Positions 436 through 5,403 of a stretch of 64,000 nucleotides of DNA are shown here, piece by piece. Source of the DNA: Xanthomonas sacchari (lineage in GTDB: Bacteria > Pseudomonadota > Gammaproteobacteria > Xanthomonadales > Xanthomonadaceae); NCBI RefSeq assembly GCF_040529065.1, contig NZ_CP132343.1, positions 2,976,001-3,040,000 of the forward strand. The letters run 5' to 3'. How positions within the stretch are numbered: position 1 is the stretch's first letter; every line of letters begins with the position of its first letter. A model generated the notes under the pieces. It did no database searches and was not told the origin of the DNA. It saw only the letters and a list, made by a program, of their open reading frames with translations. Both the position numbers and the translations under genes were made by a program.

Positions 436-1425
436 ATGGATCTGGAGGACTGGTCGTCCCGGCTGAAGGTCTTCGCCGACGCCACCCGCGTGCGCCTGCT
501 GGCGCTGCTGGAGCAGGAGGAGCTGACCGTGGCCGAGCTGTCGGCCATCACCCGCCTGGCGCAGCCGCGGGTCTCGACCCACCTGGCCAAACTCAAGGAA
601 GCCGGGCTGGTGCGCGACCGCCGCGCCGGCGTGTCGGCCTATTATCGCTTCGACGAGACCCTGCTGGACCCGGCCCAGCGTGCGCTGTGGCTGGCGCTGA
701 GCACAGGCAGCGACGACCCGCTGCTGCGCCAGGACGCCGAGCGCGTGGCCGCGGTGCTGGCCAACCGCGCCGCCGACCAGAACTGGGCCGACTCGGTGGC
801 CGGCGACATGGAACGCCACTATTCGCCCGGCCGCACCTGGGAAGCGCTGGCGCGCACGGCCCTGCCGCTGCTGGAAACCGGCGACGTGCTCGACATCGCC
901 TCCGGCGACGGCGTGCTGGCCGAACTGGTGGCGCCGCACGCGCGCCGCTACGTCTGCATCGACACCAGCGCGCGGGTGGTGGCCGCGGCCAGCGAGCGCC
1001 TGCGCCGGCTCGGCAACGTGGAAGTGCGCGAGGGCGACATGCACGCCCTGCCCTTCGCCGACGCCAGCTTCGACCTGGTGGTGATGATGCACGCCCTGAC
1101 CTACGCCACCAAGCCGGCGCAGGCGGTGTGCGAATCGGCGCGGGTGCTGCGCCCGGGCGGGCGCCTACTGCTGTGCAGTTTGGCGCGCCACGAACACAAG
1201 GCCGCGGTGCAGGCCTACGGCCACGTCAACCTCGGCTTTTCGGCCAAGGAACTGCGCAAGTTCGTCGGCAAGGCCGGGCTCGAGGTCTCCAGCCTGGAAA
1301 CCGTGACCCGCGAGAAGCGCCCGCCGCACTTCGAAGTGATTTCGTTGATTGCTGGGAAGCCGGGAATCGGGAATGGGGATTCGGGAGTGGAGAAGGCAAA
1401 AGCCAAGGCGGAGGCCGGAGCATGA
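436..1425 (+). CDS. ArsR-family regulator with methyltransferase domain (SahR-like)
   Basis: This 329-residue protein has two domains. Residues about 10-85 form an ArsR winged helix ([18 protein letters not shown], then [18 protein letters not shown]). Residues about 130-290 form a class I SAM-dependent methyltransferase fold with motif I near residue 151 ([14 protein letters not shown]) and [10 protein letters not shown] further on. The same two-domain architecture directly ahead of metH is known for SahR, a regulator that senses S-adenosylhomocysteine and controls methionine-cycle genes; I infer that role here. The ATG at 436 has GGAAGA five bases upstream. The last 25 or so residues ([22 protein letters not shown]) come from a GGGAATC-type repeat. 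It overlaps the next gene by ATGA. Confidence 0.85.
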
Positions 1426-1471
1426 GTGGCGCGGCGGTTTCACCAATCCCCAATCCCCAATCCCCACTCCC
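1362..1471. repeat. GGGNATC heptad pair spanning the sahR/metH junction
   Basis: A G-rich array (1362-1389: four GGG runs spaced by four bases) lies in the 3' end of the regulator gene, and a C-rich array of the same heptad (about 1440-1471) lies in the first codons of the next gene. The ATGA overlap of the two genes sits between them. The arrays could pair as a hairpin in the mRNA, or the G array could fold as a quadruplex. Confidence 0.8.
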
Positions 1472-2567: not shown

Positions 2568-2640
2568 TGAACGCCGCGCGCACCCTCGCCGTCGCCACCC
2601 GCGTGCGCGCCTGCACCTCCCTGTTTCCGGAACGCTGATC

Positions 2641-5403
2641 ATGTCCTCCGCCCGCCACACCCGCCTGTCCGGCCTGGAGCCGCTGCTGCTGACCCCGGAC
2701 CTGCTGTTCGTCAACGTCGGTGAGCGCACCAACGTCACCGGCAGCGCGCAGTTCCGCAAGCTGATCAAGGAAGAGCGCTACGAGGAGGCGGTGGAGGTGG
2801 CGCGCCAGCAGGTCGCCAACGGCGCGCAGATCCTCGACGTCAACATGGACGAGGGCCTGATCGACTCGGAGAAGGCGATGGTGCGCTTTCTCAACCTGAT
2901 CATGTCCGAGCCGGACATCGCGCGCATCCCGATCATGGTCGACTCCTCCAAGTGGAGCGTGATCGAGGCCGGGCTGAAGTGCCTGCAGGGCAAGAGCGTG
3001 GTCAATTCGATCTCGCTCAAGGAAGGCGAGGCGCAGTTCGTCGAACACGCGCGCAAGGTGCTGCGCTACGGCGCCGCGGCGGTGGTGATGGCGTTCGACG
3101 AGGTCGGCCAGGCCGACACCTGCGCGCGCAAGGTGGAAATCTGCACCCGCGCCTACCGCATCCTCACCGAGCAGGTCGGGTTCCCGCCGGAAGACATCAT
3201 CTTCGATCCGAACATCTTCGCCGTGGCCACCGGCATCGAGGAGCACGACAACTACGCGGTCGACTTCATCGAAGCGACCCGCGAGATCAAGCGCACCCTG
3301 CCGCATTGCCATGTCTCCGGCGGCGTCTCCAACGTGTCGTTCTCGTTCCGCGGCAACGAGACCGTGCGCCAGGCGATCCATTCGGTGTTCCTGTATCACG
3401 CCATCGCCGCGGGCATGGACATTGGCATCGTCAACGCCGGCGGCATGCCGATCTACGACGAACTGGATGCGGAACTGCGCGAGCGCGTGGAGGACGTGAT
3501 CCTCAACCGCCGCCGCGACGCCACCGAGCGCCTGCTGGAGATCGCCGAACGTTACAAAAAAGCGGGCAATCGGGATGCGGGAACCGGGAATCGGGAAAAG
3601 CTGGCGTGGCGCGAGAAGACGGTGCGCGAGCGGTTGAGCCATGCGCTGGTGCATGGCATCGACGAGTTCGTCGAGGTCGATACCGAAGAGGCGCGGCAGC
3701 AGGCCGCGCGCCCGCTGGACGTGATCGAAGGTCCGCTGATGGACGGCATGAACGTGGTCGGCGACCTGTTCGGCGCCGGCAAGATGTTCCTGCCGCAGGT
3801 GGTGAAGTCGGCGCGGGTGATGAAGAAGGCGGTCGCCTACCTGCTGCCCTACATCGAGGCAGAGAAGCTGCGCAGCGGCGACACCGGCAAGTCCAACGGC
3901 AAGATCATCATGGCCACGGTCAAGGGCGACGTGCACGACATCGGCAAGAACATCGTCGGCGTAGTCCTGGCCTGCAACAACTTCGACGTGATCGACCTCG
4001 GGGTGATGGTACCCACCCAGACCATCCTCGACCGCGCCCGTGCCGAGAACGCCGACATCATCGGCCTGTCCGGGCTGATCACCCCGTCGCTGGAAGAGAT
4101 GACCCACGTCGCCCGCGAGATGCAGCGGCAGGGCTTCTCGATGCCGCTGTTGATCGGCGGCGCCACCACCTCGCGCGCGCACACCGCGCTGAAGATCGAC
4201 CCGCACTATGCGGCGCCGACGGTCTGGGTGAAGGATGCCTCGCGCGCGGTCGGCGTGGCGCAATCGCTGATCTCGCGCGACCTGCGCGCGGCCTTCGTCG
4301 CCGCCAACGACGCCGACTACGCCGAGATCCGCCAGCGCCACAAGAACCGCGGCGACGCCAAGCGCCTGGTGTCGCTGGCCCACGCGCGCGGCCAGCGCTT
4401 CGACGGCGGCTGGGACGCCTACACCCCGCCAGCGCCCAGGCAGCCCGGCCTGCACGTGTTCGACGACTACCCGCTGGACGACCTGGTCCCGCTGATCGAC
4501 TGGACCCCGTTCTTCCAGGCCTGGGAACTGGCCGGCAAGTTCCCTGCGATCCTCACCGACGAGATCGTCGGCCAGCAGGCCAGCGAGCTGTACCAGGACG
4601 CGCTGGCGATGCTGCAGCGGATCGTCGCCGAGAAATGGCTGACCGCCAAGGCCGTGTTCGGGCTGTGGCCGGCGCAGTCGGTCGGGGATGACGTTGTGGT
4701 CCTGACGGACCGGCAATCGGGAGACGGGAATGGGGAATCGTCGAGTGGGACTGCGTCGCTCGACCATTCCCGATTCTCCATTCCCCATTCCCTGCACTTC
4801 CTGCGCCAACAGGTCGACAAGCCCGCCGAGCGCCCGGACTTCTGCCTGGCCGACTTCATCGCCCCGCGCGACAGCGGCAAGCAGGACTGGATCGGTGCCT
4901 TCGCGGTCACCGCCGGCATCGGCATCGAGCCCCACGTGGCGCGCTTCGAGGCGGCGCACGACGACTACAACGCGATCCTGCTCAAGGCGCTGGCCGACCG
5001 CCTGGCCGAGGCGCTGGCCGAACGCCTGCACCAGCGCGTGCGCACCGAGTTCTGGGGCTACGCCGACGACGAGGCGCTGGACAACGAGGCGCTGATCGCC
5101 GAGCGCTACCGCGGCATCCGTCCCGCGCCCGGCTACCCGGCCTGCCCCGACCACAGCGAGAAGCAGACCCTGTTCGCGCTGCTCGACGCCGGACGCAACG
5201 CCGACATGTCGCTGACCGAGAGCTTCGCGATGCTGCCGACCGCGGCAGTGTCCGGTTACTACTTCAGCCACCCGCAGAGCCAGTACTTCGTGGTCGGCCG
5301 GCTGGGCAAGGACCAGCTCGCCGACTACGCCCGGCGCAAGGGCGTCTCGCTGCAACAGGCCGAGCGCTGGCTGGCGTCGAACCTGGATTACGATCCGGAG
5401 TGA
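2641..5403 (+). CDS. metH: methionine synthase, folate/cobalamin/reactivation modules (split MetH part 2)
   Basis: This 920-residue protein carries the remaining MetH modules. The methyltetrahydrofolate-binding barrel starts at residues 22-40 ([16 protein letters not shown]). A cobalamin cap follows at about 360-410 and the B12 Rossmann domain at about 418-560, with the DxHxxG motif D430-H432-G435; His432 should be the lower cobalt ligand. The C-terminal SAM-dependent reactivation domain contains [13 protein letters not shown] near residue 871. Together with the preceding gene it methylates homocysteine to methionine. Two stretches, about residues 307-320 and 690-719, are encoded by heptad repeats inserted in frame between modules; no stop results, so the gene looks functional. 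Confidence 0.95.
3563..3597. repeat. G-rich heptad array inside metH
   Basis: Degenerate GGGAATC-type heptads (CGGGCAATCGGGATGCGGG and following) run in frame and encode [13 protein letters not shown], in the expected linker between the folate barrel and the cobalamin cap. Four or more GGG runs with short spacers make it quadruplex-capable. Confidence 0.75.
4711..4792. repeat. inverted heptad pair (G array then C array) inside metH
   Basis: A G array (4711-4739) is followed after a short spacer by a C array (4764-4792). Both are translated in frame as a hydrophilic insert (about [20 protein letters not shown]) between the B12 domain and the reactivation domain. The mRNA could form a long hairpin here. 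Confidence 0.8.

Follow-up and report, generated by a model that had tools for sequence, protein, structure and literature searches.

Heptad arrays and other palindromic repeats occupy the same methionine synthase loop in different lineages related to Xanthomonas sacchari

Xanthomonas genomes carry GGGAATC heptad repeats, of which 7-11% are reported as intragenic and for which the original study found no function (Rehm et al. 2015, PMC4692102). Other palindromic repeats are described as lying in frame within protein genes and being tolerated there: the Rickettsia palindromic elements (RPEs) of ~150 bp with a conserved peptide (PMC3733652, PMC10969869), and the intragenic GTAG/CGTC repetitive extragenic palindromes (REPs), short palindromes encoding 20-30 residues within repair and other genes (Di Nocera et al. 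2013, PMC3733652). Here we analyze 64,000 nucleotides of X. sacchari (assembly GCF_040529065.1, contig NZ_CP132343.1, positions 2,976,001 to 3,040,000 of the forward strand; hereafter, the window), in which a first-pass annotation had placed heptad arrays, in frame, at three places of an operon encoding a SahR-like regulator and a split methionine synthase (MetH). A scan by a degenerate-array rule, which returned 17 arrays in the window and 0 in its reversed-sequence control, confirms all three. We show that the arrays at the sahR-metH1 junction (site 1) and in the activation domain (site 3) are insertions relative to the corresponding sequences of relatives, and that different palindromic repeat classes occupy site 3 in different lineages. 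We propose, with a probability of about 0.77, that palindromic repeats of the genome itself have been inserted, or converted, at these places time and again, and retained where reading frame and protein fold survive. The relevant features are as follows, in window coordinates:

436 to 1425, + strand: SahR-like regulator, ArsR helix-turn-helix plus methyltransferase (Pfam HTH_5, Methyltransf_11)
1355 to 1389, + strand: site 1 G-rich heptad arm, an in-frame extension of the SahR C-terminus followed by a GGCAAAAGCC tag (array scan; inverted repeat)
1422 to 2567, + strand: metH1, homocysteine-binding portion of the split MetH (Pfam S-methyl_trans, 6e-98)
1444 to 1471, - strand: site 1 C-rich heptad arm, read in frame as part of the leader at the MetH1 N-terminus (array scan; inverted repeat; junction reading)
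2641 to 5403, + strand: metH2, folate, cobalamin and activation portions (Pfam; PDB methionine synthases)
3558 to 3601, + strand: site 2 single heptad element, AAAAGC-heptads-AAAAGC, at residues ~306-320 in the linker between the folate and cobalamin portions (scan; sequence; predicted structure)
3565 to 3592, + strand: site 2 heptad array proper (array scan)
4712 to 4739, + strand: site 3 G-rich heptad arm, at a beta-hairpin turn within the activation domain (array scan; inverted repeat; predicted structure)
4740 to 4764, + strand: site 3 spacer of 25 nucleotides separating the arms (pair analysis)
4765 to 4792, - strand: site 3 C-rich heptad arm (array scan; inverted repeat)

At each of sites 1 and 3 the heptads form an inverted pair, in which a G-rich arm, a spacer and a C-rich arm follow one another, with arms of 35 nucleotides at 83% complementarity and of 34 nucleotides at 76%, respectively. 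No inverted repeat was detected by the same search at site 2, where AAAAGC flanks the heptads on both sides (3558-3563 and 3596-3601). Site 1 straddles a gene boundary: the stop/start overlap ATGA of the SahR-like gene and metH1 falls at 1422-1425, between the two arms, and the C-terminal ~20 residues of the regulator consist of the G-rich arm, its tag and the spacer. Sites 2 and 3 both lie within the single open frame of metH2. The repeats had initially been described as GGGNATC heptads; the heptads are real, but a literal search of the window finds no place where two or more exact GGGNATC units stand in tandem, the units at all three sites being mixed, degenerate and GGGANTN-like. At site 2 of this genome a single unit is a strict GGGANTN, and clean four-unit arrays stand at the same place in two relatives (L087, L090). 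It is also important to note that 7 is coprime to 3, such that a perfect heptad array encodes the same cyclic heptapeptide whichever of a strand's three frames is read, and an open frame across heptads is therefore, by this reasoning, partly automatic.

With the repeats of Rehm et al. these arrays share the unit, the preference for four copies, the convergent inverted pairs and the genome-wide spread, and at site 1 and in the G-rich arm of site 3 (GGGAATGGGGAATC) at least two tandem GGGANTN units including at least one exact GGGAATC are present, as in those authors' definition. In the main text portions of that study translated inserts are not tested by comparison, and neither methionine synthase nor an AAAAGC-like tag is mentioned. 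The likeness to RPEs is one of mode and is drawn from descriptions rather than from sequence homology: the inserts work like RPEs, in that they are in-frame insertions into conserved genes relative to homologues, and differ from them in consisting of heptad arms or short palindromes, with several classes per site. The intragenic GTAG/CGTC REPs resemble, by eye, two classes (F5 and F6) found in relatives; on the window's own heptads, as distinct from the REP-type inserts of relatives, the terminal GTAG/CGTC tag was not found, an inner A[ACG][AG]GC tag being present instead. The word 'methionine' occurs 0 times in the main text of PMC3733652, and none of the terms 'heptad', 'GGGAATC' and 'repeat' occurs in PMC6230763, on methionine control in X. 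campestris. A limited literature search turned up no account of heptads being translated within MetH, nor of the turnover of repeat classes at one loop, the match of loop and genome dialects or the AAAAGC-like tag discussed below.

To place the arrays we compared 170 MetH2 loci (110 + 60). The third set retrieved was picked in part for the length of its match spans, and the earlier sets passed over some listed rows, so that the frequencies of inserts among these loci are not unbiased. A score limit and an anchor rule left 33 of these outside the first loop table and 137 parsed; 27 of the 33 were read later and carry mostly native loops of 17-20 residues, the four long readings among them reflecting a misplaced anchor, and 6 remain unparsed. 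At site 3 a short turn of 10-19 residues is found in 68 of the 137 parsed relatives, and mostly also in the more distant loci that were read later. In the 101 closest rows the length between conserved columns varies from 6 to 53 residues (a range of 47) at residues 687-716 and from 0 to 4 at residues 307-312, with two further segments of range 1, such that the only notable length variation coincides with the two heptad sites. One of the 27 loci read later has a real 36-residue reading at site 3, left unclassed, from outside the Lysobacterales, in a metagenome-assembled genome of Candidatus Gallionella acididurans (L071) whose relatives have ~18 residues. The junction, read in 92 of the 101 loci, behaves similarly: in many heptad-free relatives SahR ends at or near EVISLIA.KP and MetH1 begins close to TLPWLHP (by eye), which implies that the site 1 pair lengthened both proteins, and in three others (L118, L132, L135) a REP-like or other inverted sequence stands, by eye, in place of the heptads.

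Site 2 is different in kind. In the window's sub-clade (L083-L090) the heptads replace a Lys/Gly-rich linker of near-equal length, with heptads of another dialect in L094 and apparently degenerate ones in L093 and L096, a check that covered relatives other than L043 and L041; the native linker is mostly replaced here, and at most 4 residues are gained on balance. The question of whether the in-frame arrays are insertions, raised by the first-pass annotation together with the suggestion that they fall at domain linkers, accordingly has a divided answer: sites 1 and 3 are insertions and site 2 largely is not, whereas it is site 2 that sits in a true linker, between the folate and cobalamin portions, and site 3 that lies inside a domain (PF02965, residues 612-901 of MetH2). 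In a predicted structure (mean predicted local distance difference test score, or pLDDT, 77; predicted template modeling score 0.50; 41 sequences) pLDDT falls below 50 at residues 307-320 (site 2) and 692-712 (site 3), the latter segment lying between strands 684-690 and 712-719 of the activation domain. The GC content of third codon positions (GC3) is 0.66 across 32 loops built of GGGAWTN heptads, 0.88 in the rest of those genes and 0.85 in 48 short loops, which fits DNA of noncoding origin.

What occupies the site 3 turn differs among lineages. Assigned by our own patterns, the 137 parsed loops comprise 68 short ones, 37 of GGGAWTN heptads, 8 of GGGACYC heptads, 12 with CCTCCC-type palindromes (8 F4, 4 F3), 6 with REP-type palindromes (4 F6, 2 F5) and 6 others, one of them a GTGATTS heptad; F3 and F4 were merged because they share sequence, and F5 and F6 because they fit one pattern. 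The loop of L163 (G255) is of the GTGATTS dialect, as a complementary pair. On a MetH tree of 91 rows computed without loop and linker, with some species present twice and 10 identical cores removed, the states must change at least 24 times if all labels are kept separate (shuffled mean 42.8), and at least 16 times if heptads, CCTCCC-type and REP-type are each merged and two unclassed rows omitted (shuffled mean 36.5). The branches starred on the tree force by themselves 4 changes involving the 7 rows of the CCTCCC type, and 3 changes each for the 3 REP-type and the 38 heptad rows. The GGGAWTN and GGGACYC dialects taken alone require 7 changes. An unlikely alternative is that each site received one ancestral heptad insertion, later altered in place by slippage, mutation and gene conversion without any repeated insertion. 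It would account for the long site 3 loop in 17 of 18 g1 and 15 of 15 g17 genomes examined (both Xanthomonas-like), one of the g1 cases (G153) lacking recognizable repeats, for the 7 changes that merged heptad rows need as against 29.0 in shuffles, and for a mixed ACTC/AATC array in L288; within heptads, moreover, all 7 dialect changes could be in-place conversion. Slippage, however, cannot make CCTCCC-type or REP-type palindromes out of heptads, and both are found at the same turn elsewhere.

The heptad dialect of MetH tends to go with that of its genome. Dialects were counted in 80 of 90 genomes, 10 short-loop ones being left out, and the other patterns in 53, as pattern matches including overlaps rather than as arrays, with one degenerate pattern serving both REP-type classes; inserts known solely from contig records carry no genome counts. 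GGGACYC makes up 0.26-0.98 of the two-dialect total in 7 genomes with a GGGACYC loop (7 of the 8 rows counted) and 0.00-0.47 in 33 genomes with a GGGAWTN loop (33 of 37), a difference with a Mann-Whitney p of 3e-5 uncorrected for relatedness; in relatedness-aware comparison a mean of 3.3 of 4 independent pairs agree and none is opposed, too few pairs to test. Among the 53 genomes, those with CCTCCC- or REP-type inserts have matches to the pattern elsewhere in the genome, and the 10 genomes with zero matches in all five pattern searches all have the short loop.

The same behavior is shown by other core enzymes, two of which carry heptads in frame in the window's own genome:

L176:977-1004: in-frame heptad insert in valyl-tRNA synthetase (valS), between the catalytic and anticodon domains
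L185:1200-1227: C-rich heptads in frame in methionyl-tRNA synthetase (metG), in the linker before the tRNA-binding domain

Across 30 genomes, read by eye, the valyl-tRNA synthetase (ValRS) loop is native in 9, of heptads in 9, CCTCCC-type in 6 and REP-like in 1, with an unrelated 35-residue insert resembling RAQMANHADTALH in the remaining 5 (L216, L217, L218, L220, L221). A RAQMDN/RAQIDN segment occurs at a different ValRS site in L222 and L224. The linker of methionyl-tRNA synthetase (MetRS) is Ala/Pro-rich and hard to align; by eye, heptad-like stretches are present in at least 10 of 30 genomes, while in four (G158, G061, G208, G266) the stretches are REP-like or CCTCCC-like. These loops also bear on the improbable suggestion that the patchwork stems from horizontal exchange of whole metH alleles among species that had acquired their inserts separately. 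Exchange would suit the distant rows Luteimonas L007 and G001 L120, whose loops are near Xanthomonas ones. It would, however, keep insert and gene together, yet the states alternate on a MetH tree built without the loop, and in several of the same genomes, though not in others such as G001 and G043, matching repeats recur in ValRS and MetRS.

The own genome (4.96 Mb, one contig) holds 352 matches to a three-unit heptad pattern, overlaps counted, and 0 to the pattern read backwards. Arrays were scanned in 28 stretches around them together with the window (98 arrays), and in 20 evenly spaced stretches of 20 kb, this 400-kb sample giving 24 arrays and a control of 0. The own-genome stretches contain 41 convergent (+/-) pairs, 0 divergent (-/+) ones and 40 unpaired arrays. 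Of the frames through these 41 pairs, 473 of 492 are stop-free along single arms and 143 of 246 along whole pairs, and element length modulo 3 (16/10/15) is without clear bias. An A[ACG][AG]GC tag lies within 12 nucleotides inside the G-rich arm in 73 of 122 arrays, compared with 3 of 122 for the stretch farther inward, under a rule devised after the profile had been inspected and whose first version gave 71 of 122 against 7; it recurs in 17 of the 24 evenly spaced arrays, and the strict form AAAAGC in 30 of 122 own-genome arrays. The tag is less common in other genomes (15 of 39 arrays, by the first version of the rule). Ahead of the first G-tract an A[AG]GC motif is seen in 40 of 122 arrays as against 6; of the 24 evenly spaced arrays, 6 have it. 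No single conserved spacer core was found among the 41 pair spacers, in which three short similarities occur. Coding arrays are rare: metH2 contains three and the ValRS and MetRS genes one apiece, making 5 of 98, apart from the two junction arms. Three further candidates (L178:5151, L188:3009 and L264:13405/13479) were rejected, their open frames matching no Pfam family and being probably antisense.

In light of these results, we propose that the three arrays would be copies of the genome's heptad repeats which came to lie within or next to the metH genes, sites 1 and 3 each receiving an inverted pair and site 2 a single unit. Such repeats may arrive repeatedly, through insertion or through conversion from other genomic copies, and would be retained where they are stop-free, preserve the frame and meet a segment tolerant of additional residues. 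Most coding arrivals would be lost, with those in a permissive turn or linker persisting in frame and open to later replacement; their survival at a given place would depend on selection for fold and frame, not on a target-site preference. The encoded peptide, predicted to be translated as a floppy segment, is probably a passive loop.

Several observations weigh against this proposal. No target-site duplication or mobilizing enzyme is in evidence for the repeats, and none of the 24 evenly spaced arrays in 400 kb lies in a verified gene. The MetH tree was built quickly, and of its 88 inner branches 25 are starred and 26 are open. Its state changes are far fewer than those of the shuffles; the states are clustered, and the inserts hence inherited as well as gained. 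The dialect association is nonsignificant once relatedness is allowed for, two genomes (G061, G218) hold only ~2 and ~1 pattern matches beyond the MetH copy itself, and some repeat-rich genomes (G162, G028, G274, G264, G044) retain the short loop. More tentatively, and at rather less than even odds, the Lysobacterales may harbor an active, as yet unnamed class of heptad element, usually of four heptads with AAAAGC-like tags and often in convergent pairs, which together with other palindromes continually recolonizes a fixed set of permissive loops in the essential enzymes MetH, ValRS and MetRS and gives them genome-specific peptide dialects.

A regulatory or ribosome-pausing role of a hairpin or quadruplex in the metH mRNA, for which hairpin-forming inserts would be maintained, appears very improbable. 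The first-pass annotation had suggested that the inserts may alter mRNA folding or ribosome pausing. At site 3 the predicted RNA hairpin is strong (z -3.84, with 0 of 200 shuffles equally stable), at site 1 it is weak (z -2.17) and at site 2 none is predicted (z +0.71); a quadruplex of four G3 tracts with loops of 1-7 nucleotides is possible by rule at sites 1 and 2, but impossible on both strands at site 3 of this genome. A role for the hairpin would be in keeping with the palindromic members found in every repeat class at site 3 and with the identical dialect of G-rich and C-rich arms in 40 of 40 scorable loops (5 of the 45 heptad loops lack a scorable unit on one arm). Palindromy is, however, inherent to these repeats, which are present in ValRS and MetRS as well; some GGGAWTN rows (e.g. 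L125, L166) have a single arm only, and quadruplexes are possible, on either strand, in 29 of 45 heptad loops (21 of 37 GGGAWTN, 8 of 8 GGGACYC). Within the own genome, 3 of the 5 coding arrays and 91 of the other 117 could form one. That half of the parsed relatives do without an insert further speaks against a needed role. Together, these data point to repetitive DNA that repeatedly invades proteins and is tolerated there, rather than to an mRNA switch.

The question of how repetitive DNA seeds protein segments thereby becomes testable, with one enzyme loop offering its native form and several repeat classes as natural variants, and with natural permissive sites marked in MetH and ValRS. Annotators should be cautioned not to take such loops for functional motifs, and the AAAAGC-like tag and the dialects offer a handle on the spread and role of heptads, questions that remained after Rehm et al. 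If the recolonization proposal is true, proteins share, and go on exchanging, the repetitive DNA of their host.

Elsewhere in the window heptad arrays lie at seven further places:

9841 to 9861
23876 to 23903
34240 to 34368
35832 to 35967
48403 to 48551
51254 to 51281
56576 to 57099

Three of the seven are convergent pairs, and none lies within a long GC3-biased open frame by our own rule. The REP-like palindrome pattern GGAGSGRCKTCAGYCSCGAC has 456 matches in the whole own genome (G000), exceeding the 352 of the three-unit heptad pattern. Finally, the mixed array in L288 (G205) begins with GGGACTC units and continues with GGGAATC ones, which may be a relic of conversion or of an exchange of units.

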